A stretch of DNA of 30,056 nucleotides from a virus: positions 1-30,056 of the IMG/VR virus record IMGVR_UViG_3300037090_000306; one strand, given 5' to 3'. The position numbers and the translations under genes were made by a program. Positions 7,261-24,000 of the stretch are shown piece after piece. Each line of letters starts with the position of its first letter. Within the stretch, counting starts at the first letter, position 1. Under the pieces are notes generated by a model. The model was given only the letters and a program-made list of their open reading frames with translations, was not told the DNA's origin and ran no database searches.

Positions 7261-7508
7261 ACCCAATCATTAATTATAAGCGTTTTATTCTGAAGGCCCT
7301 CCTGGAGGCAGGGGGGACCCCCCAACTGGACGCTCTGCTTGAGGATTGGTGCCGTAGGGTGCAGCCGTCGCTGCTGTTGAGTGATTTTCACCAGGCCTTG
7401 CGCGAGCTGGAGAGCGATAAGTTCACGATCGGCATCGAAGACGGGCTGGATAAGAGCGTATCGTGGGCTCTGACGGTCAAAGGGGAGGCACGAGCGAAGC
7501 AACTCTGA
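7257..7508 (+). CDS. Small winged-helix-like protein (83 aa)
   Basis: The fold looks like a compact winged helix: helix YKRFILKALLEAGG, helix LDALLEDWCRR, helix LLLSDFHQALRELE, then a wing with two strands (KFTIGIED, SVSWALTVKGEARA). This pattern is common in small Mu-phage proteins lying just upstream of the terminase genes (gp24-gp26 region of Mu). The start overlaps the preceding stop (ATGA). DNA binding is likely from the fold; the target is unknown. Confidence 0.6.
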   Translation: MNPIINYKRFILKALLEAGGTPQLDALLEDWCRRVQPSLLLSDFHQALRELESDKFTIGIEDGLDKSVSWALTVKGEARAKQL

Positions 7509-7525
7509 AACATGAAACGTGAAGC

Positions 7526-8081: not shown

Positions 8082-8108
8082 CACGGATTACACGGATTTC
8101 ACGGATAC
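8082..8108. repeat. Nine-base tandem repeat between terminase genes (CACGGATTA type, three copies)
   Basis: CACGGATTA, CACGGATTT and CACGGATAC lie head to tail directly before the GTG of the large terminase. If translated in the terminase frame they give a DYTDFTD-like peptide. Confidence 0.9.
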
Positions 8109-8109
8109 A

Positions 8110-9717: not shown

Positions 9718-9718
9718 G

Positions 9719-9776
9719 GTCCGAAGTCCGAAGTCCGAAGTCCGAAAGAAGGCCGAAGGCCGAAATCCGAAGGCCG
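9719..9776. repeat. Heptamer tandem array, unit GAAGTCC and drifted forms
   Basis: About eight units follow the terminase stop: GAAGTCC repeated, then GAAAGAA, GGCCGAA and AATCCGA-type variants. The later units differ but keep the 7-bp phase. The array lies immediately upstream of the 90-bp dispersed element. Confidence 0.93.
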
Positions 9777-9787
9777 ATGGAGGCGCT

Positions 9788-9877
9788 AGGACGCGTTGGG
9801 GGGCGTTTGGGGTGCAATCCATGCCGGGAGGGGTTCCGACGCAGCACATCGAGCGTTAAACGGGTATTAACAAGTGT
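9788..9877. repeat. 90-bp dispersed intergenic element, copy A
   Basis: Aligns without gaps to 16100-16189, about 80 percent identical by eye. The best-conserved parts are AGGACGCGTTGGGG, TTGGGGTGCAATCCATGCC and TAACARGTGT. Both copies contain an inverted repeat GTTAA-N7-TTAAC (here 9855-9859 and 9867-9871). Both copies have a heptamer array before and heptamer units after. It lies in the gap before the portal gene. A regulatory site or a short mobile/repeat element are the main options. Confidence 0.85.
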
Positions 9878-9887
9878 TGAGAAGACA

Positions 9888-9922
9888 GTCCAAAGTCCAA
9901 TGTCCCGCGTCCAAAGTCTTCT
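9888..9922. repeat. Heptamer array following the dispersed element (GTCCAAA type)
   Basis: Five in-phase 7-bp units: GTCCAAA, GTCCAAT, GTCCCGC, GTCCAAA, GTCTTCT. The longest reading of the portal gene would translate this array as its N-terminus; I place the portal start after it. Confidence 0.85.
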
Positions 9923-9960
9923 GGGTGCGGGATGGCGGAATTTCAACCTTTGGGAGGCCT

Positions 9961-11796
9961 GTGAACCTTAACGGCACCAGCCAATTCAACCAGGCGCGGA
10001 TCGAATGGGCGATTCGGCTGAAATATTCGCCGATGCCGGAGCTGGACATGGAGATGCTGGCCTCGCAGCTCAATGCGTTCCGGATCGGCGAGATGCGCGT
10101 CGTGGGCAAGACGTGGGAAGTAATGATGGAGCGGGACGGGGAACTGGCCGTCAATGCCGACAAACGGGCGGCGGACCTGGCCGGCATGAGCTGGAAAGTG
10201 GTCAGCGATGGCAGTCCGGACGGGGATAAGCACGCGGCGGCGCTGCAATACTTCTACGACCACCTGAAAGTGACTGAGGCGCTGGATCAGGACGTTTGCG
10301 GGAATGCCGACCATTTGATTTACCAGATGGCGTCGGCGCACTCTTACCGCTACAGCGTGCACGAGATGCTGATGCGGGTGGATAATCCGGCGGCCATGGA
10401 AGTGACGGCGGAGTTCCGGCATACGCCGGTTTGGTTTTTCGAGTCGCGTCGGGGTTACCTCGGCTATTTGCAGCACATTTTCGACATGTACGGGGTGCCC
10501 TGCGTGTCGGGGGAATGGCTGACCTGCGTGGGGCTGGGCTGGATGCGGCCGCTTTCGATGGCCTTTGCGATGAAACATTTCGCGCTGCGGGATTGGCTGC
10601 TGTTCTGCACGCGCTATGGCAGCGGGTTCCTCGAGGGAATCACGGACGCGCAAAAGGACTCGCCGGAATGGGGCCAGGCCGTGGAAGCGCTCGAGGCCAT
10701 CGCGAATGACGGCGTGGTGCTCCATAACCGCGGGGTGGATTTCAAGTTCCTCGACCAGGCGGCCAAGAATGCGCTGCCTTTCCAGCCGATTATCGAGATG
10801 ATCAACGGGCTGTACGCGAAGTGTTACCGGGGAGTGGATCTGGCGACGGGCTCGCGGTCAAGCGCCAGCCAGCCGGGGCAATCGTCTAAGAGCCCGGTCG
10901 GGGCGAGCGTGCAGAAGGAAGAGAGCGGGATCTACCTGGTGCGGGACTGCAAGTGGCTGACGGGGTATGCGAATGACCGGATTGATGTGCCGGTGATCCG
11001 CTACCTGTTCAACCAGCAGCCGCGGGCCTGGTTCGCGCTCATGCCGCCGCTCGAAGACATGACGAGCGACGACCTGGCCAGCGCGCAAGCCCTGGTGCCG
11101 ATGGGTCTGAGGCTCGCTCTGAGCGAAGTCTATGGCCGTTTCCGCTGGCGCCAGCCCGAGGCGGGCGAGCCGGTGCTGATCCCGGCCCAGGCGCCCGCCA
11201 TGCCCGGCGAAGACCCGGAGGCGAAACCCGCCGGCCCGAATGGCAAGCAGCCCAATGCCGGACAGCAGAAACCGAAGCCGAATCCGCCGCCCGCGCCCGC
11301 CAACGGCGGCAAGGTCAAAGGCGCCAAAGGCCCGCCCGCCGCGGCGGACCGCAAGACGCAGCCGGCTTTGGAGGAAGCTCCCATCGCCGCGGGCGCTGAT
11401 CCGGATAAGAATCCCGAAAGCCAAACGGCCAGCACGGCCATGCCGGATACGCAGGTGGATGCCGGCGGCTTCTGGAGCCGGGCCGGCCTGCTGCCGAAAG
11501 GTGCGGACGGCCAGACGCTGCCGATGCCATCGCTCGGCTACGCCCTCCCGCAAGACAAGACGCAGCCGGAAGTAAAGGTATTTGCGGCCGCGGTCGCACA
11601 CGACATCGAGCCGATGCTGGCGCGGCTGGCGAAGGTCAGCGGGATCAAAGACGACGGGATTTTCAAGACGAAGCTGCACGATCTGATGCGCGACTGGGAT
11701 GCGCTGGCTAATGACATCCAGGCGGATCCCCGCTCGCTACGGGTGCTCGAACAGATCCTGCAACAGGGGGTTTTACGGGGAGTGACAAAAACATGA
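9961..11796 (+). CDS. Mu gp29-like portal protein, DUF935 type (611 aa)
   Basis: Forms the portal ring at the capsid vertex. The N-terminal domain reads like DUF935 portals (LDMEMLASQLNAFRIGEM, then MMERDGELAVNADKRAADL, then LAGMSWKVV). The middle has the expected WFFESRRGYLGYL, SGEWLTCVGLGWMRPLSM and LFCTRYGSGFLEGI segments and VLHNRGVDFKFL. A Pro/Ala/Lys-rich linker (about 400-470) leads to a helical C-terminal clip-like part. The GTG at 9961 is chosen because GGGAGG precedes it by three bases and the sequence becomes family-like there. A GTG at 9925 or an ATG upstream would add repeat-encoded residues. The stop overlaps the protease start (ATGA). Confidence 0.88.
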   Translation: MNLNGTSQFNQARIEWAIRLKYSPMPELDMEMLASQLNAFRIGEMRVVGKTWEVMMERDGELAVNADKRAADLAGMSWKVVSDGSPDGDKHAAALQYFYDHLKVTEALDQDVCGNADHLIYQMASAHSYRYSVHEMLMRVDNPAAMEVTAEFRHTPVWFFESRRGYLGYLQHIFDMYGVPCVSGEWLTCVGLGWMRPLSMAFAMKHFALRDWLLFCTRYGSGFLEGITDAQKDSPEWGQAVEALEAIANDGVVLHNRGVDFKFLDQAAKNALPFQPIIEMINGLYAKCYRGVDLATGSRSSASQPGQSSKSPVGASVQKEESGIYLVRDCKWLTGYANDRIDVPVIRYLFNQQPRAWFALMPPLEDMTSDDLASAQALVPMGLRLALSEVYGRFRWRQPEAGEPVLIPAQAPAMPGEDPEAKPAGPNGKQPNAGQQKPKPNPPPAPANGGKVKGAKGPPAAADRKTQPALEEAPIAAGADPDKNPESQTASTAMPDTQVDAGGFWSRAGLLPKGADGQTLPMPSLGYALPQDKTQPEVKVFAAAVAHDIEPMLARLAKVSGIKDDGIFKTKLHDLMRDWDALANDIQADPRSLRVLEQILQQGVLRGVTKT

Positions 11797-12734
11797 AATC
11801 AACAAATCCTGACATCGTCCTGCAACTAGCCCTGGGGAACGGGGAAATCGACGCGGATGGCTGGGCGCTGATCGCGCCGTTTGGCGAGCATCCGAAGACG
11901 CGGGTTTACCGCGAGGACGGGCAGATTAAGGAGCAGCAGTTTATCCAGGTGCTGGATAACGAATCGGCGGACGCGCTGCTGGCCAAGGAGAATTCATTTT
12001 TCCGCAAGCTGCGCCGGGCGCTGGTGGGGATTCCCACGTTCAAGGGGCACGGCGACCTGAATGATGCCGATCCGGCGGCGGTATCGAACGAGGCGCAAAA
12101 GATCAAGATTGGCGTCGTGGACCAGGTGCGCAAGGGCGAGCGTGGCATCGAGGCGCACTTTGCCCTGGATAACGAGGGGGCGGAGGCAGTCGAGGCGGGT
12201 TTCAAGTATCCCAGCGCATTCTGGTGGGTCTTACCCATCGCCAATGGCCAATCAGATGGCAAGGCGATCCGCTGCCGGCCCTTCAAGCTGATTTCGGTGG
12301 CGTTGACGCCTTATCCAAACATTTCGGGGGTTGAGAGCCTTGCCAATGCAGCCCCCGAGGAACAATCAGGGCAAGAAAAACAATCAAACGACAAGGAAAA
12401 CATGTTACGCGAACAGATCATTGGGTGCCTGATTGCCAAGGGCGTGCCCATTCAGAACGAAATGACGGATGGGCAGCTGCTGGCCGTGCTGGCGAACGAG
12501 TTTCACGGGAATCAATCCACGGGCGCCGAAGTGCATGGCTCGCATAACGAAGCGAGCCGCAGTGCGCACACGGCATCGGCGGATGCGAACAGCAAGGGTG
12601 GCCATGAAGCGGCTGCGAAGGCGCATTTGAAGGCCGCCGCGGCGCAGGACAAGGCTGGGAACGGCGAGACGGCGGAGATGCACCGGAAGATGGCGCAGTA
12701 TCACGCGAGCCGGGCGGGCCGATTCGGCAAGTAA
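11793..12734 (+). CDS. Mu gpI-like prohead protease fused to scaffold (313 aa)
   Basis: Prohead maturation protease. Residues 1-180 match the Mu I-type protease pattern: an opening beta domain (DADGWALIAPFGEHP), IPTFKGHGDLND with H86, a strand pair (GIEAHFALDNEGAEAV), YPSAFWWV with S141, and the family-typical closing FKLISVALTPYPNISG. H86 and S141 are the catalytic candidates. After a Gln/Glu/Lys linker, residues 204-313 form an Ala/His-rich helical scaffold-like domain (HEAAAKAHLKAAAAQ, MHRKMAQYHASRAG). The start overlaps the portal stop. As in Mu I/Z, the C-terminal part may also be made separately (see next entry). Confidence 0.85.
   Translation: MKSTNPDIVLQLALGNGEIDADGWALIAPFGEHPKTRVYREDGQIKEQQFIQVLDNESADALLAKENSFFRKLRRALVGIPTFKGHGDLNDADPAAVSNEAQKIKIGVVDQVRKGERGIEAHFALDNEGAEAVEAGFKYPSAFWWVLPIANGQSDGKAIRCRPFKLISVALTPYPNISGVESLANAAPEEQSGQEKQSNDKENMLREQIIGCLIAKGVPIQNEMTDGQLLAVLANEFHGNQSTGAEVHGSHNEASRSAHTASADANSKGGHEAAAKAHLKAAAAQDKAGNGETAEMHRKMAQYHASRAGRFGK
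12402..12734 (+). CDS. Possible internal-start scaffold protein within the protease gene (110 aa)
   Basis: An in-frame ATG (codon 204 of the protease gene) is preceded by AAGGAAAAC, a fair ribosome site. It would yield a scaffold of 110 residues (begins MLREQIIGCLIAKGVP). Mu makes its scaffold Z from an internal start in gene I, and the arrangement here is the same. The evidence is the start context plus precedent, not an expression signal. Confidence 0.5.
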   Translation: MLREQIIGCLIAKGVPIQNEMTDGQLLAVLANEFHGNQSTGAEVHGSHNEASRSAHTASADANSKGGHEAAAKAHLKAAAAQDKAGNGETAEMHRKMAQYHASRAGRFGK

Positions 12735-12792
12735 TGATTTTGGCGGCGTCTGAGCGCAGCCAGAGAACACAAACAACAACGAAAGATAAAGC

Positions 12793-13404
12793 ATGAAGAA
12801 TATAATGATTGGATGGCTGGCGGGCCGGGGTGTCACCCTGAGTCCTGACAGCAGCGACCAGGTCGTCATGAGCGCGGTGCAAACCGCGGCCACGGCGGCG
12901 CAGGGTCAAATCAGCGCGCTCGGCAACGAAAAGAGCGAGCTGGGCGGGCGCATCACGGCGCTGGAAAACGAGCGCAACACGGAGAAGAGCCGGGCGGACC
13001 AGGCGACGACGGCGCTGGCAAACGAGCAATCGGCGCGCAAGGCCGAGCGCAAGGGCCGGGCCGAGGCGACGACGGACCTGGCGATTCATCGCGGGATCCT
13101 GACCATGGCGGAGCGCGAGGGGCAAGTGACGGCGCTGGAGAATTCGGCGGACTTCGATAAGGACGCCGAGGCGTTGCTCGCCAAACAGCCGGCCACCAAG
13201 ACGACCAGCAACAATACGTCGGTAAGTGGCAAGCAGTCGGCTGCCCTCAGCAATGAGGAGCAGGAGACGCGGGCGCAGTACGACACGGCGTTCAAGGCCG
13301 AACTCATCGCCAACGGGCAGGACCCGGTGCGGGCGCATGCGGCGGTCATGAAGAAGCCGGAATACAAGGGGCTGGCGCAGAAGCTGACGCCGAAGAAAGG
13401 TTAA
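12793..13404 (+). CDS. Coiled-coil scaffold-like head assembly protein (203 aa)
   Basis: A short N-terminal domain (IMIGWLAGRGVTLSPDS) precedes a long heptad-type coiled coil (about 40-95, LGNEKSELGGRITALENER, LANEQSARKAERKGRAEA). The C-terminal part, DLAIHRGILTMAEREG to LENSADFDKDAEALLAK, resembles the tail of Mu-type protease/scaffold proteins (xIxxGRITxAERxxW). It is therefore likely a second, separate scaffold or a duplicated scaffold domain. The C-terminus is basic (LTPKKG), as is common for scaffold parts that bind coat protein. The leader before the ATG is A-rich without a strong ribosome site. Confidence 0.65.
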   Translation: MKNIMIGWLAGRGVTLSPDSSDQVVMSAVQTAATAAQGQISALGNEKSELGGRITALENERNTEKSRADQATTALANEQSARKAERKGRAEATTDLAIHRGILTMAEREGQVTALENSADFDKDAEALLAKQPATKTTSNNTSVSGKQSAALSNEEQETRAQYDTAFKAELIANGQDPVRAHAAVMKKPEYKGLAQKLTPKKG

Positions 13405-13423
13405 AGGCTAAAGGCTAAAGTCG
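13403..13423. repeat. Short heptamer array (AAAGGCT, AAAGGCT, AAAGTCG)
   Basis: Three in-phase units beginning on the stop codon of the scaffold-like gene, upstream of the gene at 13440. Confidence 0.8.
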
Positions 13424-13439
13424 AACAGGAATCAAAAAT

Positions 13440-13748
13440 ATGGGTGAGAAACAAACACAGACGCCGGCGGCGGACCTGGCGCCCGAGAATGCGGGGGTTC
13501 AAGCGCTCGGAAACAGCCGCCGCGTGGCACGGACGCCGCCGGTGGACATGGCACACGAGAACATGGGGCTGAAGGCGCGGGTGGCCGTGCTGGAGGCGGA
13601 GAAGACGCAACGGACCGCGGATGAGGGATTGATCTCGGCCAAGATGGCGCGGGGGCTTTCGCGGGGGCAGGCAGTCGCGGTGATCACACGGCAGCGGGAG
13701 TACGACACGGCTAAGAAGGCGGCGGAGGCTAAAACCAAAACGAAGTAA
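13440..13748 (+). CDS. Small hypothetical head-region protein (102 aa)
   Basis: Function not recognised. The first half is polar and low in structure. The second half has a helix (LKARVAVLEAEKTQR) and a segment ISAKMARGLSRGQAVAVITRQREYD, which I recognise as a pattern frequent in small phage head-region proteins (xKMxxGLxRxQAxxVIxRQxxxD). It may act in head assembly or as a minor head component. The basic Lys-rich C-terminus is typical of DNA- or coat-contacting tails. A heptamer array lies on each side. Confidence 0.6.
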   Translation: MGEKQTQTPAADLAPENAGVQALGNSRRVARTPPVDMAHENMGLKARVAVLEAEKTQRTADEGLISAKMARGLSRGQAVAVITRQREYDTAKKAAEAKTKTK

Positions 13749-13761
13749 CAGCAGACAAAAG

Positions 13762-13789
13762 CAGAAAACAGAAAGCAGAAAACAGAAAG
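13762..13789. repeat. Heptamer array, alternating CAGAAAA / CAGAAAG (four units)
   Basis: Four units in strict alternation, so the higher-order period is 14 bp. The array is upstream of the gene at 13803 and supplies its purine-rich leader. Confidence 0.9.
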
Positions 13790-13802
13790 CAAGAATCGAA
13801 AC

Positions 13803-14348
13803 ATGAAGAGAATCAAACAATTAATGGTGGCCGTGCTTGGCACGCTGGCCGCGACCTGGGATCGCCTGACGAAGCCGGCGGGGTTCGCCCTGCCGAATGA
13901 ATTGGCCCTGATGAACGAACATGGGGTCGAGACGCTGATCATCAACGCTGGCACAGCGCCGGTGTCCAGCCGCTACCTGCTCTATAAGCGCGGGTCGGGC
14001 GGGGCGAATTTCTGCGACATCTGCACGGCGAGCGATCTGCCGATGGGCATTTCGAGCGATTCACCTTACCAGGACGCGGATCTGGTGAACGTGCGTCGCC
14101 TCGGGCTCCGGAAAGGGTTCGAGATCGGGATGGCCGCAACAGCCATCACGATCGATCACTTGGTGACACCGGCGGCAGCGGGCAAGGTCCAGGACCTGTC
14201 GCTCATTTCCGCGGGCGCGAATTACTACGTGATTGGCCGGTGCAATAAAACCGTCGCCGCCCTGGCGGAGGTCTCCTTCGTCCCGTGCACGCCTTACCTG
14301 GTGACCGTGGCGTCGCTGGGAAGCTGGTCGCTCGCCAATCCGGCATAA
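13803..14348 (+). CDS. Probable capsid decoration protein, DUF2190-like (181 aa)
   Basis: Directly before the major capsid gene, the usual place of a head decoration/stabilising protein. The core shows the DUF2190-type pattern: SSRYLLYKRGSGGANFCDI, a Gly-rich strand pair (LPMGISSDSPYQD), then GMAATAITIDHLVTPAAAGK and YYVIGRCNKTVAALAEVSF. This is the repeated beta-tulip style of decoration proteins. An extra N-terminal stretch (MKRIKQLMVAVLGTLAAT) is hydrophobic and basic and looks like a weak signal sequence, which is odd for a capsid protein. Cys residues (FCDICT) could form disulfides or chelate metal. Confidence 0.65.
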   Translation: MKRIKQLMVAVLGTLAATWDRLTKPAGFALPNELALMNEHGVETLIINAGTAPVSSRYLLYKRGSGGANFCDICTASDLPMGISSDSPYQDADLVNVRRLGLRKGFEIGMAATAITIDHLVTPAAAGKVQDLSLISAGANYYVIGRCNKTVAALAEVSFVPCTPYLVTVASLGSWSLANPA

Positions 14349-14353
14349 CCCCC

Positions 14354-14388
14354 GAAGTCTAAAGTCTAAAGTCTGAAGTCTAAAGTCG
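14354..14388. repeat. Heptamer array, unit AAAGTCT / GAAGTCT (five units)
   Basis: Five in-phase units between the decoration and major capsid genes; the last is AAAGTCG. The AAGTC core is shared with the arrays at 9719 and 13403. Confidence 0.93.
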
Positions 14389-14403
14389 AAGAAAGAAAAG
14401 AAC

Positions 14404-15441
14404 ATGAATAGAATTGACATACCCCTGGCACTGGCGAACACGCGCGCGGGCCTGGCGTTTATGCAGAGCGGCGTGGTGCTGAGCAACGACTGGGCGGGAA
14501 TGCCGAGTGGCACGATCTGTCTGCCCAATGATTCGTTGCTGCGGCAGACGGAAAACATCGAAGAGCTGACGGCTTTTGCCGCGAGCTACGATTCAATGGT
14601 CGGCAACGGGCTGGCGCGGTTGCGGGATTTCCTGGCACCGCCGAGGCCGAGCAGCAGCCGGATTTTCCGGTTGACGACCTATAACGAAAACGAGCCGTGG
14701 GAAACGGTGGATTACAACCGGATTAAACGCGGCATCCTGGCGGATTTTGCCGAAGTGCGGCAGCGCACGGCGGCCAAGAGCGACCTGCAAGCGCCGAATC
14801 GCGGGTTGTCCGTGATTCTGGACCGGGATGAGCTGAAGGACAAGCCGGAGTGGCAGCAGACGCACACGAAATGGCTGATTGACCTGCTCAACCGGGCGAC
14901 CGTGCTCGAAGCGGTGGATACCTTCACGGCGGCGGCGACGGCGGACGCGGTCACCTGGGATGCGGCAAGCAACCCAGACCTGGACATCAGGACGCGGGTC
15001 ATCACGCTGGCGAACACGACGGGCTTCTACCCGCAGAACGTGGCCTATGGCGACGCGGCTCATCTGGCGCGGCAGACAGCCTACGAGAACCAGCTCACGG
15101 CTGGGTCACTGGCGCGGGCGGGGCAGTTCACCGAAGCGGAGATCGCCACAGCGCTCGGCATTTCCAATGTGCTCATCAATGCGGAGCGCTATCAGAGCAG
15201 CTCGACGGCGAAGTCGGAAATCCTGGGTAAGAACGTCCTCATCTTCACGGGGATCAAGGACGCCGGCCCGATGGATCCGAGCAACATCGTGCGGCATGTC
15301 GTCGGCGGCCAATACGGCAGCGGCGAATACGCGGTCTATGTCACCGACCTGGGCGTCAAGAAGATCGCCATCACCGTGGAGAATTACGAATACCTCCACA
15401 CGCAGCACACGACGGGGATCATGAAGCTGGCCATCAACTAG
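14404..15441 (+). CDS. Major capsid protein (345 aa)
   Basis: Builds the icosahedral shell. Size, position after the protease/decoration genes and sequence pattern match Mu-like siphophage major head proteins of HK97 fold. Features: an N-terminal arm (IPLALANTRAGLAFMQSG), an E-loop region (about 75-105, RIFRLTTYNENEPWETVDYN), a spine-like helix after RGILADFAEVRQRTAAKSDL, P-domain strands (LSVILDRDELKD), an A-domain (DIRTRVITLANTTGFYPQNV, ALGISNVLINAERYQSS) and a terminal strand (YAVYVTDLGVKKIAITVENYEY). The start ATG follows the purine-rich heptamer leader. The protein has a single Cys (SGTICLPND). Confidence 0.85.
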   Translation: MNRIDIPLALANTRAGLAFMQSGVVLSNDWAGMPSGTICLPNDSLLRQTENIEELTAFAASYDSMVGNGLARLRDFLAPPRPSSSRIFRLTTYNENEPWETVDYNRIKRGILADFAEVRQRTAAKSDLQAPNRGLSVILDRDELKDKPEWQQTHTKWLIDLLNRATVLEAVDTFTAAATADAVTWDAASNPDLDIRTRVITLANTTGFYPQNVAYGDAAHLARQTAYENQLTAGSLARAGQFTEAEIATALGISNVLINAERYQSSSTAKSEILGKNVLIFTGIKDAGPMDPSNIVRHVVGGQYGSGEYAVYVTDLGVKKIAITVENYEYLHTQHTTGIMKLAIN

Positions 15442-15449
15442 CTGTAATC

Positions 15450-15477
15450 AAAGCAGAAAGCAGAAAGCAGAAAGCAA
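15450..15477. repeat. Heptamer array, unit AAAGCAG (four units)
   Basis: Three exact AAAGCAG and one AAAGCAA, ending a few bases before the ATG at 15482. The same unit recurs at 20172 and 20993. Confidence 0.95.
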
Positions 15478-15481
15478 AGAC

Positions 15482-16000
15482 ATGAATACGATCAAGAAAA
15501 TCAAGGCGCGGGTGCTGGTGGGGTTGGCCGTGCTGGTGGCGATGGCGCTGCCGGCAATGGGCCAGACGCTCAGTCCGCGTATTTCCACGCTGGCATTGGC
15601 GCTGAGCTGCACGAACGGCTCGACGCTGACGATCGGCACCTCGACTAACATAGTGCAGGGATTCGCGGCGACGCACCGGATGCAGTTATGCGCGGTCATC
15701 GCGCCGTTGGGAACGACGGCGCTGACGAAGGCGAACTTCTGCACCAACCTGGTGATGACGTTCCAATACCTGGTGGGAACGAACGTGACGACCGATACGC
15801 CGTTCACGTGGACCATCGACAATAACCAGCTCGCGGGCGGGGCACTGGCGGCCGGGAACACGAACGCCATCACGGTGCGGACAAATCTGCCCGTCGAGGC
15901 TTGTGACAGCCTCTCGGGGATAAAGTTGGGCACGGCGCTGGGATCGAGCACAAACGCGGCTGGATTCTCGCTGACCGTGCTGACGGCGCAAACGCCATAG
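15482..16000 (+). CDS. Secreted-looking beta-rich protein in the head gene cluster (172 aa)
   Basis: Function not recognised. It begins with a textbook Sec signal peptide: basic MNTIKKIKAR, hydrophobic VLVGLAVLVAMALP, and a cleavage-like AMGQ at about residue 28. The mature part is Asn/Thr/Ala-rich and beta-like (STLALALSCTNGSTLTIGTS, LVMTFQYLVGTN, TPFTWTIDNNQL), like virion decoration or host surface proteins. It has four Cys in the mature part. It lies between the major capsid and connector genes and is followed by a strong hairpin. Possible roles are a head fibre, a head decoration protein or an exported non-virion factor. Confidence 0.6.
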   Translation: MNTIKKIKARVLVGLAVLVAMALPAMGQTLSPRISTLALALSCTNGSTLTIGTSTNIVQGFAATHRMQLCAVIAPLGTTALTKANFCTNLVMTFQYLVGTNVTTDTPFTWTIDNNQLAGGALAAGNTNAITVRTNLPVEACDSLSGIKLGTALGSSTNAAGFSLTVLTAQTP

Positions 16001-16016
16001 CCTTTAGTGCACAGAG

Positions 16017-16049
16017 CCCGGCCGCCGTCTGTAGGGGGCGGCGGCCGGG
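16017..16049 (+). terminator. Strong GC hairpin, attenuator-like, after the secreted-looking gene
   Basis: CCCGGCCGCCG (16017-16027) pairs perfectly with CGGCGGCCGGG (16039-16049), giving an 11-bp stem with an 11-base loop. No U-run follows (CTCCTCTCACG), so it is not a standard intrinsic terminator. It may be a pause, attenuation or mRNA-stability element that lowers transcription after the abundant capsid genes. Confidence 0.6.
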
Positions 16050-16060
16050 ACTCCTCTCAC

Positions 16061-16095
16061 GAATGATGAAGGATGAATGATGAAGGATGAAATGG
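16061..16095. repeat. Heptamer array, alternating GAATGAT / GAAGGAT (about five units)
   Basis: GAATGAT, GAAGGAT, GAATGAT, GAAGGAT, then a drifted GAAATGG. The 14-bp alternation is like that of the array at 13762. It leads straight into copy B of the 90-bp element. Confidence 0.9.
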
Positions 16096-16099
16096 GCGC

Positions 16100-16189
16100 A
16101 GGACGCGTTGGGGGACGGTTGGGGTGCAATCCATGCCCGGAGGGCGTGCGACGCCACCAGCGAAGCGTTAACAGGCTATTAACAGGTGT
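16100..16189. repeat. 90-bp dispersed intergenic element, copy B
   Basis: Gapless counterpart of 9788-9877. The GTTAA-N7-TTAAC inverted repeat is at 16167-16171 and 16179-16183. It is followed by GAGTCTAAAGTT, short heptamer-like units, and then the ATG at 16210. With the array and hairpin before it, the gap 16001-16209 is almost completely accounted for. Confidence 0.85.
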
Positions 16190-16209
16190 TTGGTACAGAG
16201 TCTAAAGTT

Positions 16210-16407
16210 ATGCCGCGTGAATTGTTGCCCCTTAGAAAAAACCGGGAGACGCACACGAAAGCGGAGTTGTTTCCACGGACGGAGGCGCGAGTGGTGGCCG
16301 GATACGGTGGGAGGGCGTGGGACCGGCGGATCGTGAAGTGGGAGCTGCGGGAGATGGCGGCGGACGGGATCGGTAGGGAAGAGGGGAAAGCGCTAAGCAC
16401 GGAGTGA
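16210..16407 (+). CDS. Small basic hypothetical protein (65 aa)
   Basis: Function not recognised. A short, highly charged protein (MPRELLPLRKNRETHTK to the Arg-rich VAGYGGRAWDRRIVKWE), probably helical at the C-terminal end (WELREMAADGIGREEGK). No membrane segment and no Cys. The ATG at 16210 is preferred over 16186 because the earlier start lies in the repeat element. It lies before the gp36-like connector gene. Codon use is like the neighbours, but small size keeps confidence moderate. Confidence 0.45.
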   Translation: MPRELLPLRKNRETHTKAELFPRTEARVVAGYGGRAWDRRIVKWELREMAADGIGREEGKALSTE

Positions 16408-16424
16408 AGCGTGGAGCGTGAAAT
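16404..16424. repeat. Short heptamer array (GTGAAGC, GTGGAGC, GTGAAAT)
   Basis: Three in-phase units overlapping the stop codon of the small basic gene and ending four bases before the ATG at 16428. The middle unit equals the one expanded at 4241 and 17281. Confidence 0.8.
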
Positions 16425-16427
16425 GAT

Positions 16428-16865
16428 ATGAGCTGGATCACCGTAACAGACGAAGAGGCCATGCCGGTGGCATCGCCGGAGCGGCAGTCAATCGCCGGCA
16501 TCAAACGGGCCGATGACCTCTCGGATAAAGTCGCGGAGGCGACCGAAACATTCCGCGACGCGATACGGTCCAGCGGCCAGCCTCTGGACGTTGACGGGAC
16601 GGTACCGCTCTCGCTGAAGAGGTATGTGATTGCCTGGGCCATATGGGCCTTTGTCTCGCAGGGCATGCCGAAAGTGCCATCGATTCAAACCGAGGCGCGA
16701 AAGTCGGAAAATGACAAGGCCGAAAAGATGCTGGAGCGAGTTATTGACGGCAAATTGAAGGTCAGCGCTCCGGACCCGAACCAGACAATCAGTCACGGGG
16801 TCAGCCTCGTGCGGCGCGGGCGGCGCGTGAGGACCGATAGCTTCGACAAGCTGGGTGCGACGTGA
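16428..16865 (+). CDS. Mu gp36-like head-tail connector, DUF1320 type (145 aa)
   Basis: Small helical connector of the gp36/DUF1320 type. It opens with a short strand and acidic loop (SWITVTDEEAMPVASPER), then helices (LSDKVAEATETFRDAIRSS, LKRYVIAWAIWAFVSQGM, DKAEKMLERVIDGKLKV) and a basic C-terminal tail (SLVRRGRRVRTD). This is the expected run: DD/DE loop, long helix, a second helix with aromatic residues, basic end. It precedes the head morphogenesis gene. The ATG at 16428 follows a purine-rich heptamer leader. Its stop lies inside the possible 5' extension of the next gene. Confidence 0.68.
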   Translation: MSWITVTDEEAMPVASPERQSIAGIKRADDLSDKVAEATETFRDAIRSSGQPLDVDGTVPLSLKRYVIAWAIWAFVSQGMPKVPSIQTEARKSENDKAEKMLERVIDGKLKVSAPDPNQTISHGVSLVRRGRRVRTDSFDKLGAT

Positions 16866-16866
16866 C

Positions 16867-17976
16867 GTGAAAGGCGCGGAACCCAATTACCTGGGGAAGT
16901 TGCTGGCGGATATGAAATCCGAGGTCGCCGGCCTGTCGGCTGATCCGGTGCGGGCGCGGGCGCGGATCCGGCAGTTGCTGGACCAGCTGGGTCACTGGGC
17001 TCTGGTGAACTCGAACGACGATAGCGAGGATTCATGTCCGGCAGGAACTATTGAGCGGCTATTCGGCGAGGAAGAGCCAGCCGCCGATCGCAGCGAGCCG
17101 GATTCCAAACGGAAACCGGCAGAGTTGGCTGAGTGGCGCCGCCACATGCGGTCGCGCGTGCCCGCTGTGAGGCGCTATCTAGCTGCCATCCATGAAGCGC
17201 TGTTGCCAGCGCGATTGGAGATGCAGGCCAAGATCCTCAGCAAATCCGCCTTGGCGAACGAACCGGCTCCGTGCTCATTCGCTCCACGCTCCACGCTCCA
17301 CGCTCCACGCTCCACACCCCTGGCGAACAGCGAAGGCTCCGGCGCGGCGATGGATTTCATGTTCGACCTGCGCAAGTTCAAGCTCAACTTCGAGAGCGTA
17401 ATGCGAGTGGCCGGGTTGGATGCTTTCCAGGCGGCCGGGGCGCAGGCTCTCGTCGAGATGGGCAAGGACGATCCGTTCAAGGCGACGCCAGCGGCGGTGC
17501 AGCGATTTCTTGCGGATCGGGAGAATAAGATGGCGGATACGCCGCAGGACATCTTTGACCAGGTGAAAAGCGGGCTGGCTGAGGGGTTCGATAAGGGCGA
17601 GACGATGTCTGAGCTGGCGGGGCGGGTAAAGGCAGCGTTTGGCGACATCGAAAAGGGCCGCGCCATGACCATCGCCATGACCGAGACGAGCGCGGCATAC
17701 GGGCAGGGGCGCAACGATGCTCAGAAGCAAGCCGGGGCCAAATGGAAGCGATGGATGACCTCCGGCAACGCGAATGTGCGGGCGGCGCACCGCATGGTCA
17801 ACGGCGAGGTTATTCCGTTTGACGACTCGTTCACGATGGTTGACGAGCGGACGGGGGAATCGGATGAAATCCGGTTCCCGGGCGACCCCGATGGCGAGCC
17901 GTGGAATGTCATCAACTGTCATTGTAAGTGCGGGGTGGTGCTCAAGGGGCCGCCGGAGGAAGACGCCGTCGAATGA
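16867..17976 (+). CDS. Mu gp30/SPP1 gp7-like head morphogenesis protein with repeat insert (about 369 aa)
   Basis: Minor head protein needed for capsid assembly. The C-terminal 170 residues carry the family signature: KGRAMTIAMTETSAAYGQGR, KRWMTSGNANVRAAHRMVNG, EVIPFDDSF, IRFPGDPDGEPWNVINC and HCKCG, with Cys/His positions as in the family (NCHCKCG). The N-terminal half is helical and divergent. About residue 135-150 a GCTCCAC x5 array (17281-17315) is translated in frame (APRSTLHAPRSTP), an insertion between N-terminal and central domains. The start is ambiguous: GTG 16867 (one base after the previous stop) or GTG 16855 (overlapping it). The stop overlaps the next ATG. Confidence 0.85.
   Translation: MKGAEPNYLGKLLADMKSEVAGLSADPVRARARIRQLLDQLGHWALVNSNDDSEDSCPAGTIERLFGEEEPAADRSEPDSKRKPAELAEWRRHMRSRVPAVRRYLAAIHEALLPARLEMQAKILSKSALANEPAPCSFAPRSTLHAPRSTPLANSEGSGAAMDFMFDLRKFKLNFESVMRVAGLDAFQAAGAQALVEMGKDDPFKATPAAVQRFLADRENKMADTPQDIFDQVKSGLAEGFDKGETMSELAGRVKAAFGDIEKGRAMTIAMTETSAAYGQGRNDAQKQAGAKWKRWMTSGNANVRAAHRMVNGEVIPFDDSFTMVDERTGESDEIRFPGDPDGEPWNVINCHCKCGVVLKGPPEEDAVE
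17281..17315. repeat. In-frame heptamer array, unit GCTCCAC x5, inside head morphogenesis gene
   Basis: Five exact 7-bp copies (35 bp) inside a coding region. The unit is the reverse complement of GTGGAGC seen at 4241. In both coding insertions the coding sense is the pyrimidine-rich strand and gives LHAPRST-like peptides; in gene junctions the purine-rich strand is the sense strand. Confidence 0.95.
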
Positions 17977-18494
17977 ACTTTGAATTCACCATTCCAGCGG
18001 GGGCGGCGAAGGCAGCGGCGCGCTGCCGGGACCAGGCGGGGCTCCTGGGGGCGCTGGCGGCGCGGATGGATCTGCTCAATGAAGCGGCAGTGACTGAGAT
18101 CCAACTGAAACGGTTCAGTAAGAGCGGGCCGGAATCGCTGGGAATAAGGACGAACAGATTAAGCCTCTCAATCCGGCCCAGCAAAGCGGTCGTTTCGGGC
18201 GACGCGGTCCTCTCCACGATTGGCAGCAACGTGAAGTATCTGGGGGTGCATGAGGAGGGATACAAAGGAACAGTACAGGTGAGGCGCCATGTCCGACAGC
18301 GGTTTGCGAAGGAAAAGTTCTTTGGCAAATGGCGACTAAACCGGAAGGCGGACGTGGAGGTGGGTACGTTTATGCGGAAGATGAATATTCCCGCGCGGGC
18401 GCCTCTGCGGCGCGGGATCGAAGATTGCCGCGAGATGTATCGCGCCGGCCTGGCGTCGGTGGCAAGCGACTTCTACGCGGGAAAGGCGGCATGA
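17973..18494 (+). CDS. Mu gp31-like tail completion/virion morphogenesis protein (173 aa)
   Basis: Matches the pattern of small virion-morphogenesis (tail completion) proteins. It has an N-terminal helical region (AAARCRDQAGLLGALAARM, LLNEAAVTEIQLKRF), strands (LSLSIRPSKAVVSGDAVLST), the typical YLGVHEEGYKG (compare YaxiHexGG), and the Arg-rich VRRHVRQRF followed by IPARAPLRRGIED, equivalent to the IPaRPFLg...l motif. The ATG overlaps the previous stop (ATGA), and its own stop overlaps the next start. Confident in family type, less so in the exact step it serves. Confidence 0.75.
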   Translation: MNFEFTIPAGAAKAAARCRDQAGLLGALAARMDLLNEAAVTEIQLKRFSKSGPESLGIRTNRLSLSIRPSKAVVSGDAVLSTIGSNVKYLGVHEEGYKGTVQVRRHVRQRFAKEKFFGKWRLNRKADVEVGTFMRKMNIPARAPLRRGIEDCREMYRAGLASVASDFYAGKAA

Positions 18495-19204
18495 GCGACA
18501 TCCTACAACTCCAGGAATACCTGTTTAAGGGGCTGTTAAGCTGCGGTTTATTCGACCGGTTTAACGTGGTGTTGGAGCGTCAGTTTCTGGCGCAATCGGA
18601 GCTGGCGGTCGAGACGCTTTGGCTGACGGCGCGCCAACCGGACGGCCCGGTGGGAGCAGGACTGTATGTCGAGATGCCGCGCTTGCAGGTGCCTAAGCCG
18701 AATTCGCTTCAGCGGAACCTGCTCGCTTCAATCGTGGCGATTGAGAACCGGAATATCAATCTGCTGAGCACGGGCACAGGGACATCCTGCGAAGAGTTGG
18801 CGGAGTTGGCGCTGGATTTCATGTTTGGCTGGGTGCTGGGGTTCAGCAGCGGATTGACTCCGGACGCGGGAGCGATTACGCCGGCTACGGATCTCTTGCA
18901 GGGCGACGGCCTGGTCGTGTTGCGGGCCTCGGTGTCGATGAGGCGCGAGCATCGGCCTTGGATGAGATGCGATATACCCCTGGTGAGTGATGGGAATGAT
19001 GGGACCTATGGGTTGGTGAATGGGGCCAATTCACCCGACGCGGATATTTACTATACTTTCGACCGGTCGCTGCCGGGAAAGGCTAACACGAAGGCAAAGC
19101 TTTATCAGGGGCCCCTGGCTTTGCAGGTGGGGCAGATCATCACTTTTGCGGCTTGGCGGCCCAATCTGCTGCCGTCGCACATATCGGTCAAAATAATTAC
19201 GTAG
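18491..19204 (+). CDS. Tail terminator-like protein (gp37 position) with C-terminal chitobiase-type beta domain (237 aa)
   Basis: Residues 1-165 occupy the place of the Mu gp37/tail-terminator protein: short helical start (ILQLQEYLFKGLLSCG), strand-rich core (AGLYVEMPRLQVPKPNSLQ), ELALDFMFGWVLGFSSG and strands around LVVLRASVSMR. Residues about 180-237 resemble the FN3-like domain at the C-terminus of chitobiases/beta-hexosaminidases (ADIYYTFDRSLPGKANTKAK, then LYQGPLALQVGQIITFAAWR; compare the DIYYTxDGSxPxxxSxxYxGPIxLxxxxxIxAxA pattern). This adds a possible glycan- or protein-binding knob to a tail protein. A 9-bp GTGATGGGA-type microrepeat joins the two parts (about 18985-19010). Confidence 0.65.
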   Translation: MSDILQLQEYLFKGLLSCGLFDRFNVVLERQFLAQSELAVETLWLTARQPDGPVGAGLYVEMPRLQVPKPNSLQRNLLASIVAIENRNINLLSTGTGTSCEELAELALDFMFGWVLGFSSGLTPDAGAITPATDLLQGDGLVVLRASVSMRREHRPWMRCDIPLVSDGNDGTYGLVNGANSPDADIYYTFDRSLPGKANTKAKLYQGPLALQVGQIITFAAWRPNLLPSHISVKIIT

Positions 19205-19240
19205 AGCGTGAAGAAAATTAGAACATAGAAAGAAAACAAT

Positions 19241-20167
19241 ATGCCAGCACTGGATCTAACAACCATCAACGTGGGGGGACCTTGCAAAATCGTCGATGTC
19301 GCCCAGGTCATTTACACGGAGGGCGACGTGAAGCTCGAACCGAAGCCGGTCTATCGGGAGATTCCATCATCGCTGGGCGGGGCGCTGGATTCGGTCCTGG
19401 TTGACCTGGTCTGGACGATCAGCGGGGTGCCGAAGTCGGTGTGGGATTCCGGGACCCGGGCGTCGCTGTTGCCGGCGGCATTGACGAATTTCGTGACGGC
19501 GGGCGGGCGCGTTTGCGGGTCGGCTAACCGGGCGGTGACGGTCCAGGGAAGCGACGGCGAGCAATTCGCGTTCACGCGGTCGGCGCTGTCGAAGATGCCG
19601 GACGTATTCATGGGCCTCGGGAAGTCGCTCTATACCGGGTTCGAATACACGGGCTGGATTGGCACGGGGAAGTCTCCGACAGACCCCGATGCGTTCTACA
19701 CGCAATCGACAGGCGTGGCGTGGACGCAGGCGGACTATCCGGTCACTCACCAGGAGGCGCTGTGCACGGCGGCCTGGGGCGCGGTCGCCGGCTGGGGCAC
19801 TGTGTTTGCCGAGGAAGGCTTCACGCTGACACACGAGCTGAAGTTGAACCCGGTGAAGATGGGCAACATCACCGTGGACCAACGGGTCGAGAGCTACCGC
19901 GCGATGGTGGGGTTCAAGCCGCAGGGACCAACGACGGCGCAATTGCTGGCGGCCATTGGCCTGCAGGGAACGGCGATGGGCATCGGAACGCGGCTGTCGG
20001 CCCTGGCGCATAGCTTCGTCGTGACCGGGACGGGGTTATCGGTGACCGTGCCGGGCGCGGCACTGAATAAGGGGGCGTTCGAGTTTGACTCGAAACTGAA
20101 CCGGCATGGGGATTTCGGCATGATTACGGCGCTTTCAGCGCCGGGAGCAAGGCTAACCCTGGCTTGA
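19241..20167 (+). CDS. Major tail tube protein (308 aa)
   Basis: Long-tail tube subunit. It begins MPALDLTTINVGGPCKIV. The central part has tube-fold features: DSVLVDLVWTISGVPKSV (compare the region where tube proteins contrast with a default), FTLTHELKLNPVKMGNITVD with the conserved GNITVD/R turn, YRAMVGFKPQGPT, and a C-terminal strand set ending GDFGMITALSAPGARLTLA. It follows the terminator and precedes small tail genes, the usual order. No sheath gene is seen beside it, which supports a siphovirus-type tail. The leader (19205-19240) is A-rich with AGAAAGAAAAC. Confidence 0.8.
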   Translation: MPALDLTTINVGGPCKIVDVAQVIYTEGDVKLEPKPVYREIPSSLGGALDSVLVDLVWTISGVPKSVWDSGTRASLLPAALTNFVTAGGRVCGSANRAVTVQGSDGEQFAFTRSALSKMPDVFMGLGKSLYTGFEYTGWIGTGKSPTDPDAFYTQSTGVAWTQADYPVTHQEALCTAAWGAVAGWGTVFAEEGFTLTHELKLNPVKMGNITVDQRVESYRAMVGFKPQGPTTAQLLAAIGLQGTAMGIGTRLSALAHSFVVTGTGLSVTVPGAALNKGAFEFDSKLNRHGDFGMITALSAPGARLTLA

Positions 20168-20171
20168 CCAA

Positions 20172-20199
20172 AAAGCAGAAAGCAGAAAGCAGAAAGCAA
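20172..20199. repeat. Heptamer array, unit AAAGCAG (four units)
   Basis: Same unit and same unit count as 15450-15477, ending four bases before the ATG at 20204. Near-identical leader for two distant genes. Confidence 0.95.
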
Positions 20200-20203
20200 A
20201 AAT

Positions 20204-20593
20204 ATGATCATACACACAATAACACAGACCTATCAGACCAGCCCGAGCCAACAGCTTTCGGGGCAGACGGCGGTGACCGGGGATACGGAGATGAATTCCG
20301 ATGTCCTGCTGCCCCCGGCATCAGTGGACGTGGTGCTGAGCCAGGCGCTGACATTGGCGAAGGTGCAATCGCTGGCGCTGGCCTGTACGGGGGCGACCAC
20401 GGTGCACACCTATAACGAAATTACGCTGAGGGATACGATCACCTTCGCGGCTGCGGGGACGATCGTGTGCGCGTCAACGGCCGCGGTGGCCGCGCTGTTT
20501 CCGGGGGGCGACTTCACCTCCATCAAACTAACGAGCACGCCGGGCGCCCTGTTCTCGCTGCGCAGCCTGGTGATGGATACGATGTTCCACTAA
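20204..20593 (+). CDS. Small beta-rich tail/virion structural protein (129 aa)
   Basis: The exact role is not recognised. Strand-rich Thr/Ser/Ala protein: ITQTYQTSPSQQLSG, NSDVLLPPASVDVVLSQALT, VQSLALACTGATTVHTYNE, DTITFAAAGTIVCASTAA, FTSIKLTSTPGALFSLRSLV. The pattern of a target-strand pair, then TNxxxxxDTI, then a default-value strand is common in small structural proteins of Mu-like siphophages next to the tail tube. No signal peptide. In many siphophages this position holds tail assembly chaperones, but the beta-rich composition does not fit them. Confidence 0.6.
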   Translation: MIIHTITQTYQTSPSQQLSGQTAVTGDTEMNSDVLLPPASVDVVLSQALTLAKVQSLALACTGATTVHTYNEITLRDTITFAAAGTIVCASTAAVAALFPGGDFTSIKLTSTPGALFSLRSLVMDTMFH

Positions 20594-20602
20594 GCGATTC
20601 AG

Positions 20603-20992
20603 GTGAAGATCGAATACCGAACGCCGACCGGGACCGGGACGTACTCGGTCCTGGCCGATGAAGGGGCCGGCTCCCTGGGCGAGCGTATCTCCGGCTACTC
20701 GGCGCGGCCGGGGCAATCGGCACTCTTCCGCGGGGGGCTCTGGGTCGTGTCGTTCATGGTGGATCGGGTGCACGCGAGCGCGGACGCGGCGGCGCTGTTC
20801 GTTTCGACGCAGGGGGCGATCTTCGCCGTGCCGGGAGTGTTTGGGCGGGTAAACTTCTTCGATCTCAAGATCACGATCGGGAGCCAGGTGCTTTACTCGT
20901 TGATGGCTGGTTGCACGGGGTTTTCGCCCGCGCCGGCCAGCGACCAGACTTCGCTGATTAGTTACACGTTTAGCTGGGGCAGCTATGGCTGA
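20603..20992 (+). CDS. Small beta-rich tail protein (129 aa)
   Basis: Function not recognised. It starts with GTG (KIEYRTPTGTGTYSVLADEG) and is built from strands (LFRGGLWVVSFMVDRVHA, RVNFFDLKITIGSQVLYSL, LISYTFSWGSYG). Same length as the preceding protein but without clear sequence similarity, so not an obvious duplicate. Probably a distal tail or baseplate accessory component from its place between the tube and the first spike. The start is nine bases after the previous stop (CAGGTG, weak ribosome site). The frame is well supported by strand-like periodicity and codon use. Confidence 0.55.
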   Translation: MKIEYRTPTGTGTYSVLADEGAGSLGERISGYSARPGQSALFRGGLWVVSFMVDRVHASADAAALFVSTQGAIFAVPGVFGRVNFFDLKITIGSQVLYSLMAGCTGFSPAPASDQTSLISYTFSWGSYG

Positions 20993-21013
20993 AAAGCAGA
21001 AAGCAGAAAGCAG
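20993..21013. repeat. Heptamer array, unit AAAGCAG (three units)
   Basis: Three exact units, beginning right after the stop codon and running into AAATG of the next gene, so the array is the entire intergenic leader. Confidence 0.95.
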
Positions 21014-21015
21014 AA

Positions 21016-24000
21016 ATGAAGACGCGAATTGGACTGATTGGGCTGGTGACGTTGATGTGCCTGACGGCGCGGGCGACAACGGTCAATTTCTCGACCAAGG
21101 CGATGATCGGGGGCGGCCAGTTGAATGCGCGCCTGACGATCTCGCCGGCTCCGGGGTATGCGCTGTCGGTTTCTGGCACGAATAACATGGTCGGCTGGAC
21201 GCAGACGGTGCCGATGACCAATGGACTGGCGAGCTGCTGGATTGAGCCGGGTCGCTATGAGGTGCGGATTGCGGGGCTCAATGGCTACTGGACGATCAGC
21301 GTCTGGGATTCGCCAGACCCGTTGACGGGTGCGGAAGTGACGGTGGATCTGCTGGCCTATTATTACCCCGGGCAGTCGGCGACGGTGACAAATGCCATCG
21401 GCGGCACGAACAATGGGGTGACGAGCCTGGCCAGCGCTTCGGCGGCGGGGCTGATGCCGACAAATCTGGTTGTGCGAACCTTGAATAGCGCTCTAGCGCA
21501 CAGGGCTGCGATGCGCACGAAAATCCCGATGTTCATATATCCATATGCGGCGGGCGCTCCGGGTGCGACGTGGCAGTTCATCGTGGGGGCGGCGCAGTAC
21601 GCGAATACCAACGGCTTTGTGCAGCATGGCTATGATACCATCGTCATGCAGTGCGGCACTGTAGCCACAAACCGCAACAACCTCGGCGATCTTCAACTTG
21701 AGCCAACGCGGTTTTCGATTGGGGTAACGAACCTGGTGGCCATGCTGGCAACTAACGGCATGAAGTTGGGATTGCAGATGCAGTTTTCAGCAATGGACAA
21801 CGATACCAACTGCGACTGCGCCAGCTACGCCAACGGCGGGCCGGAACTGATGATTGGTCCGACGAATGCCTACCGTGACGGGCTCACGATTGGCCGCTGG
21901 GGCATGTCACATGTCTGGATCGGAAACCCAGGGAATGGCACCAACGAGACGCTGCTCCGGTATATCACGGACAACTTTGAGGCGGGGTTGTATGACGGCG
22001 CCGCGAGTATCGGTTCGGCGATGCCAACCCTGGACATTTCCTTTTCGGCAGCGTGGCCGCATTACAAGTGGCTGACTGAGACGTACAACATGGTTTATAG
22101 CGATCTAGGCTTGCCGGGCGACCCCCAGACGGTGGATCCCAGGGGATTACAGTTGCGCTATTTCGACATCATTGCTCAGGACGGCTGGCTCTACACTGGG
22201 GATTCAGTACCGACGACGTACGGGTTCTATCCTCGTAACGTGGATGGACGTAGTTGGCGGACGGTGGACGCGATGCGGTTTGAGTTTGGGATGTCCTGTA
22301 TGGAAAGCCTGCCTCTCGCACCTAACGTGGCTATGCCTAACTCAGATGAAAGCGTGGTGGTCACCAATGACGCGGCGATTGCGATTGGCCAGGACCTGTT
22401 GCGCTCGCCTGCCTTTGTCGTGTCCAGCAACGCGACTTCGGCGGTAATCGGCAAGCGGTTGATGAACGGAGATGTAGCGGTTGCGCTCTGGAACCTCAAC
22501 ACCAATGCAGCCACCGCGATTTCGATCAACCTCCTGAGCATCCCGGGCATCTGGACGAACGTGGTATCAGTGGTGAATGTGTTTGATGGTGGTCAGACTA
22601 CGGTGACAAACGCTCTCTCCGCTACGGTCAACACGGACGGCCTGAACCTGTACCGGCTGCTGCTGACGCCGACCGTGGCAGGGTTGTCCGGAAACTACGT
22701 GGGCACCAGTGGCGGCCTGTCGAGCAACCAGGTGCTGCTCAGCGCTACCCTCAACGCAAGCAGCCAGGTGGCCGCCTCGGTGGTTTACGCAGCCACCTGC
22801 CCGGTGGATTTGTATGTCACAAACTTAGTGGAGTGGCACAAGCCGGACGCGCTCAACTACACCAATGGGACAGCGACCAACTGGGCAGATTCAACGTCGC
22901 TCCATAACGACACGACCAACGTGAGTAACCAGCCGCTGTTTTACAGCAATGTGGTCAACGGCCTTGGCGCATTTTTGTTCACCAACTCGGCCTATCTCGT
23001 GAGCAAGTATTTCGGCGGCTCGCTCTATACTAATTTCACGTTACTGGTGATGTATAACCAGGCCAGCGCGGGGACGGAGCGGATCGTGGACAAAGGAGTG
23101 ACTGGCAGTGGATGGGGATTGACTGCGTTCGGTGGCATCCACACGGAGATGCGTGCAAATTACGCAAACCTCGATGCGAGCCAGCACGCGATTGGGACCT
23201 GGGATATAGCTGGTGAATGGGTGAATTACCCAAACATGGGCGTGTTCGATGATGGTTCAACGGCGACCAGCGCAATTGGAATCTACACGTCAGGTGTGTG
23301 GGGAGATGATGCGCCTTGGATTGGCAGCACTGCTGGCGGCGGAAACTACTTCACCGGCTGGATCAGCGAGGTCATGTTCTGGAATACCAACCTGAGTCCG
23401 GCTGACCTGAACTATCATTCAAACTACCTCTACGCGAAATACAAGGCGCCGTGGCCGACGCTGGCTATCCCGATCAACGCGAGCCCGGTCGCTTCGCAGG
23501 CGTGGGTGTCAAATAGTACTGCGCTACTCTCCGTGCCCAACGCCTTCACCGCTCCGCAGACGTTTCGGGACGTGACCATTACGGGCAACTTCGGGGTGTC
23601 TAATGGCAACTCGACGGCCACATTGAGCAACCTGGTGGCGACGGGCTGGGCAACGGTGCACGGGTATCAGACCAACCTCTCAGATATTTACGGTACGGTG
23701 TTTCACGGGAAAGCAGACTACGCCGGCAGTGTTTCGGCTGGCGGAATCACAACCAACGCAGGTTACGGCGTGTTTGGAACCGGAGCATTCAGCCCGGCGG
23801 GAAGCGGCGGCAGCACATTCACCAATGGCAACGTCAATGGTGTAGTCTTGACCAACATTGGCGGTCTGAGTGTGGGCGCAGGATTTACGAGCACCTATAC
23901 GAATGAGTTTCGTGGCACTACACTGGCAACGAACCTGACTGGCACTTTGAATGGCAACGCTTCAACTTCGAGCAGTTCGACAAACGCGACCTATGCGAAC

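Follow-up and report, generated by a model that had tools for sequence, protein, structure and literature searches.

The viral contig IMGVR_UViG_3300037090_000306 of IMG/VR (30,056 bases, all of which were analysed and are referred to here as the window) is a Mu-like phage that carries short tandem arrays of 7-bp units at many of its gene junctions. These heptamer arrays are specific in their period, lie preferentially in gaps between co-directional genes and, beyond near-identity, turn over faster than proteins do. We infer a link to the host and a cause at the level of the polymerase: the arrays probably stem from a bias of the host lineage toward slippage in 7-bp steps, and were filtered by selection into co-directional gaps. 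They look like tolerated microsatellites rather than a fixed genetic switch.

Heptamer arrays in the window

At a lag of 7, the window has eight exact runs of 12 or more matches, versus 0.0 expected from 30 third-order Markov simulations. The other lags from 4 to 13 gave no run or one run each, lags 14 and 21 being multiples of 7. The strict 7-bp phase claimed in a preliminary description of this DNA is thus confirmed, as is the occurrence of arrays at many gene junctions: all those listed there are present, and a further short one was found at 7505-7531 (Table 1). When genes were called by codon usage, the region 8080-21016 had 12 late co-directional gaps of 20 nt or longer. Nine of these held a heptamer array and one a period-9 array, while the gaps at 12735-12792 and 19205-19240 had none. 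Eleven of the 12 listed arrays lie in gaps or leaders, the only exception being that at 17280-17315. The window arrays are heptanucleotide simple sequence repeats (microsatellites). Assembly error is an unlikely source, because they are shorter than a read and are identical in near-identical contigs from two other metagenomes.

Tandem-repeat and autocorrelation scans revealed at least seven different units, none of which is TAACTGA. AAAGCAG recurs at four junctions and GTGGAGC three times; AAAGCAG and CAGAAAR, listed separately in the preliminary description, are one unit. GTGGAGC occurs in both orientations, the arrays at 4241 and 17280 being mutual reverse complements. Both had been taken for coding copies; the latter indeed lies inside the MuF gene, but the former is probably non-coding, as the minus-strand gene beside it is predicted to start at 4236, with the array immediately upstream. 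Arrays had also been described as often forming the entire leader before a start codon. This is the case at 20993, where the whole gap is filled, but the arrays at 9719 and 9888 are well upstream of the portal start (GTG 9961), and a conserved non-coding element of ~125 bp separates each of the arrays at 9719 and 16061 from the start that follows. As a side observation, the period-9 array at 8082-8106 (CACGGATTA) reads TTDYTDFTD in the terminase frame.

Table 1. Positions of tandem arrays and of the conserved non-coding element in the window
Feature	Position	Strand	Context
(CGTGGAG)5.6 array	4241..4279	+	adjoins, upstream, minus-strand gene 3739-4236, in whose sense it is pyrimidine-rich
GAAACAT GAAACGT GAAGCGT GAAGACC heptads (GAARCGT)	7505..7531	+	reach into GTG start (7526) of small terminase gene
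Period-9 array (CACGGATTA)2.8	8082..8106	+	fills 29-nt gap between small and large terminase genes; like site, other period
(GAAGTCC)/(GAAGGCC) array	9719..9777	+	begins at terminase stop codon
Conserved element, copy A	9780..9905	+	GCGTTAA..TATTAAC core; terminase-portal gap, arrays on either side
(AAAGTCC) array	9887..9918	+	upstream of portal start (GTG 9961)
(AAAGGCT)3.6 array	13396..13420	+	overlaps upstream TAA stop; leader of 13440
AAAGCAG/AAAACAG alternating array	13747..13791	+	14-bp higher-order period; leader of 13803
(AAAGTCT)4.7 array	14354..14387	+	leader of putative major capsid gene at 14404
(AAAGCAG)3.9 array	15450..15476	+	leader of 15482
(GAATGATGAAGGAT)2.2 array	16061..16091	+	14-bp higher-order period
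Conserved element, copy B	16087..16210	+	before small gene 16210-16407
GTGAAGC/GTGGAGC array	16404..16422	+	overlaps upstream TGA; leader of 16428
(GTGGAGC)5 array	17280..17315	-	inside MuF gene, in frame, reads APRSTLHAPRST; insertion absent from 11 homologs
(AAAGCAG)4.4 array	20169..20202	+	leader of 20204
(AAAGCAG)3.4 array	20993..21016	+	whole gap between stop at 20992 and ATG at 21016

Carriers, turnover and placement

Period-7 arrays reach a density of 0.27/kb in the window, versus 0.027/kb in capsid relatives (L007-L013, 65-74% identity) and 0.018/kb in MuF relatives (L119-L130, 36-46%); the cultured verrucomicrobial phage P8625 has no period-7 array. We scanned IMG/VR with three window units, which yielded 47, 37 and 24 stretches, a panel that is shaped by those three units and in which some contigs are related. 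With the query-unit arrays excluded, these carriers held 110 period-7 arrays in 842 kb (0.131/kb), versus a mean of 0.012/kb for the control periods 5, 6, 8, 9 and 10; control periods were equally common in the two kin sets (0.012 and 0.008/kb). The carrier excess belongs to period 7. The GC content of the carrier contigs ranges from 0.35 to 0.69, and they are therefore diverse. Since the period-specific excess is shared by carriers and not by kin, the trait is not tied to phage family and tracks something else, most simply, and probably, the host lineage. The suggestion that certain lineages have a process by which 7-bp units are seeded and expanded is thus supported, with ~100 diverse viral stretches showing the excess, close phage kin near background and units replaced between orthologous leaders.

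Among 199 planctomycete genomes, scanned as a control for a possible verrucomicrobial host trait, (AAAGCAG)3 was found in none and (RAAGTCY)3 in four. The reversed control pattern (YCTGAAR)3, a heptamer of like style, was very common in a few of them (G043, G017 and G047), its 98 places in G043 representing a separate, genome-specific heptamer expansion; the trait therefore seems sporadic across species. Stretches of three heptamer-bearing planctomycete genomes, chosen regardless of arrays, contained 0.015-0.034 arrays/kb, and control stretches none in 236 kb, numbers too small for repeating the placement test described below. The capsid protein was found in none of 294 planctomycete genomes, a search that had no positive control and is uninformative on the host.

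Comparison of arrays between close relatives, which the preliminary description had proposed, showed none that changed in near-identical contigs and clear differences farther out. In L007-L013, most orthologs have an A-rich leader that either lacks an array or holds one with a different unit, an example being ACTGAAC ahead of the 13803 ortholog in L007. In a second group of kin, the flanks of one leader align closely, but L067 carries (GCAGAAA)n there, L093 (GCAGAAT)n, and L081 and L087 (CGTGAAA)n; at the next junction the number of units differs between L067 and L093. Of the pairs of orthologous leaders, 8 of 23 with 70-90% identity between the proteins and 30 of 117 with 50-70% had an array in one leader only. 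Where both leaders had arrays the unit usually differed (one pair at 94%, scored as different, in truth has the same units in fewer copies). Unit replacement, array gain and array loss in orthologous leaders fit the classification as microsatellites.

The 14-bp alternating units at 13747 and 16061 point to two-unit duplications after point mutation. In heptads that flank perfect arrays, each of the seven positions stays in register with the array (in-phase excess 0.10-0.18), which argues for a decayed array rather than a fixed motif. A conserved RAA core within the heptad, suggested by degenerate leaders, was considered and rejected, as conservation spans all seven positions with a small AA excess only. 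Lastly, the MuF array at 17280-17315 aligns to a gap in 11 homologs, indicating an origin by insertion, or by expansion within a linker, with the frame kept.

Array density in the panel was 1.72/kb in co-directional gaps, 0.30/kb in divergent gaps, 0.56/kb in convergent gaps and 0.10/kb in coding sequence. After removal of duplicates (homologous gaps being collapsed), 103 co-directional arrays remained. At a distance of no more than 7 nt, 32 of them are close to the upstream stop and 19 to the start; the stop is overlapped by 14 arrays and the start by 4. Their placement in these gaps is non-uniform (Kolmogorov-Smirnov test, p = 2e-4), and no peak was seen at the Shine-Dalgarno distance in this test. 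Gene starts in the panel are predictions of a simple codon-usage caller rather than mapped, and distances to the start therefore carry error.

Proposed slippage bias and its alternatives

If a slippage bias underlies the arrays, DNA copying or repair in the host lineage would favour tandem duplication in 7-bp steps, phages included. Chance 7-bp duplications would seed arrays, and slips of one or two units, together with point mutations, would expand, vary and replace the unit, as the 14-bp repeats and unit swaps suggest. Selection may then clear most arrays from coding sequence and from divergent, convergent or promoter-bearing gaps, in line with the low densities measured in coding sequence and in divergent and convergent gaps, so that co-directional spacers would remain as the main refuge. 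The phage could tolerate arrays at these sites if its leaders, as it seems, need little Shine-Dalgarno pairing and, ahead of the start, no more than an A-leaning stretch with weak structure; translation would be affected, if at all, in a generic way (spacing, low structure) that is independent of the particular unit. Heptamers have been described as over-represented in bacteria, and slippage has been proposed as the cause, on the view that a heptamer reflects the DNA segment that the polymerase active site contacts (both cited in PMC4692102).

Several points weigh against this proposal. Slippage by itself leaves the choice of 7 unexplained, and the argument is built on phage and viral contigs. 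The arrays are not hypervariable: copy number is unchanged among near-identical contigs and in kin pairs C and D. In the flanking heptads the AA core decays slightly less than the remainder (excess 0.16-0.18 versus 0.10-0.13 elsewhere). In addition, Shine-Dalgarno-like motifs occur in 12 of 78 array leaders (15%) versus 79 of 269 others (29%; p = 0.013), and permuting the array units gives slightly more structure than the units themselves have (p = 0.025). All three observations hint at some selection.

The scarcity of Shine-Dalgarno-like motifs would also be expected if the arrays were functional leaders, kept as unstructured A- or purine-rich ribosome standby sites or S1/Csp-type binding tracts in place of a Shine-Dalgarno sequence. 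This would agree with the high occupancy of the late gaps (nine of 12), with weaker predicted structure in leaders with an array (-11.0 versus -14.2 kcal/mol, p = 5e-4), with the sense orientation of AAAGCAG in ~20 of 23 cases of the panel list, and with the TAACTGA repeats of Beggiatoaceae, which mostly lie directly before starts that have no ribosome-binding site (PMC4679880). However, the orthologous leaders of kin manage without arrays, unit and orientation are not conserved, and the lower GC content of array leaders (0.456 versus 0.506) could by itself explain their weaker folding. For the use as ribosome-loading leaders put forward in the preliminary description, motif frequency and structure thus speak weakly in favour, whereas the arrays adjoin the upstream stop more than the start and keep no fixed spacing, and we consider such a role unlikely. 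As to the accompanying claim that leaders are purine-rich, there are 73 purine-sense versus 29 pyrimidine-sense arrays, but only 26 of 48 distinct units are purine-rich in sense, and outside AAAGCAG purine strands face both ways. AA is more frequent in sense units (30 versus 14 of 48), but random heptamers from array-free gaps lean similarly (43% versus 25%), and the preference mostly reflects local leader composition. There are modest hints that leader-compatible arrays survive better, and these data show no function. A role in providing stop codons in all frames was also considered and set aside as too weak (27 of 57 sense units with a stop, versus 21.3 +/- 3.0 when permuted).

A combined scheme, in which some host lineages have an active, period-7-specific process that adds new arrays to transcribed intergenic spacers, chromosomal and phage ones alike, at a rate above that of protein divergence, the arrays being kept as interchangeable unstructured leaders whose functional signal is the 7-nt spacing of AA-containing heptads and not their sequence, appears quite improbable to us. 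We judge it very unlikely that ready-made units were copied into the phage from dispersed, mobile or gene-converted repeats in host intergenic regions. Such copying would explain why AAAGCAG and GTGGAGC recur at window junctions and why the ~125-bp element is found twice with heptads around both copies, but the flanks of same-unit arrays are unrelated, with no common border visible by eye. Moreover, the 19-mer core of the element gave a single match in the available host genomes, which we judged to be due to chance: L014, the record with the match, had no convincing similarity beyond the 19-mer. The element is phage-borne, since in kin it is located in the terminase-portal gap. Finally, array copy number could tune the gene downstream, as in the hmwA promoters of Haemophilus, where the number of 7-bp repeats correlates with transcript level (PMC2424069); the arrays described here, however, are short, do not vary among near-identical contigs and precede head and tail genes rather than surface antigens, making a phase-variable switch extremely improbable. 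The hmwA arrays share with those of the window a heptanucleotide repeat upstream of a gene but are specific contingency loci, whereas the window has arrays at most junctions.

Heptamer repeats before starts are known already; we found no report of multi-unit heptamer leaders in a phage in open papers (subscription papers lay outside the search), nor any report in the open literature on heptamer arrays in Verrucomicrobiota or in phages. TAACTGA direct repeats have been described in Beggiatoaceae, Cyanobacteria and some Bacteroidetes (MacGregor 2015, PMC4679880). They too are intergenic 7-bp direct repeats upstream of starts, with rare Shine-Dalgarno motifs and little structured units. In that system one heptamer dominates, related heptamers rarely or never repeat, and arrays are mostly near the start. 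In the present case a single genome has many units, these are swapped between orthologous leaders, and panel arrays adjoin stops more than starts. The G-rich heptamer repeats of Xanthomonas and Nostoc (Rehm 2015, PMC4692102) share the period of 7, an intergenic bias, variation in length and sequence among close relatives and a proposed origin by slippage, with no function shown, but form G-quadruplexes and follow one consensus, whereas the window units are A- or purine-rich, varied and carried by a phage. Borg elements are likewise extrachromosomal (PMC9879509). Their repeats originate separately at every site, change rapidly, are enriched in A, have partial repeats at their borders and are found both between and within genes; their unit length varies (18-21 nt in the examples), unlike the fixed 7 of the window, and they are virtually absent from Borg hosts. 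In a survey of 117,861 genomes, the short tandem repeat densities of bacterial viruses resembled those of simulated genomes (PMC12699852), which makes this phage an exception.

An excess of 7-bp tandem repeats in bacteria was noted in 2007 (cited in PMC4692102), its cause having stayed open since. With many units at homologous sites and unit-swapped relatives, array birth, unit change and loss can be traced, and the rule set by mutation (7 bp) can be told apart from any sequence under selection. A heptamer 'motif' ahead of a start in lineages of this kind is not necessarily a regulatory site.

The conserved element and other features of the contig

The core of the ~125-bp element is a pair of TTAA boxes of the type GCGTTAA(C)GGGGTATTAAY. 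It is kept in the terminase-portal gap of L015/L045/L048, L085 and L093, and more weakly of L124/L125, and the element is a candidate late promoter, operator or packaging site. Both window copies also share GGGGTGCAA(T)CCATGCC (9809-9825), which the capsid relative L007 has in inverted form in its portal leader (2883-2900, minus strand). Close to copy B, the gene that ends at 16000 is followed at 16016-16050 by a strong GC-rich inverted repeat (CCCGGCCGCC..GGCGGCCGGG) that resembles a terminator but has no T run; another GC hairpin is present in the leader of the 16210 ortholog of L067 and L093.

The window encodes a large terminase, and its assignment to Mu-like phages is based on matches to Portal_Mu (PF06074, 2e-37), Mu-like protease I (PF10123, 1e-5) and Phage_Mu_F (PF04233, 4e-16). 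These portal, protease and F domains are common to bacteriophage Mu-like phages, whereas the heptamer arrays have no general counterpart in the Mu-like kin examined. The portal protein had no match among named phages and one weak match among plasmids.

Upstream of the terminase genes, the window encodes a class 3 lipase-like protein (5929-6789; PF01764, 1e-14). A 69-bp tandem repeat at 26061-26513 (6.6 copies, 87% matches), within the open reading frame 25217-27004, reads CNGWTVSNCTINNCSSGG and is likely a repeat of a beta-helix-like tail or fibre protein. At 885-915, upstream of the minus-strand gene in the MuB position (1-878), a perfect 16-bp direct duplication (TGACAGTTGGGGGAGA) might mark an operator or end-binding site.

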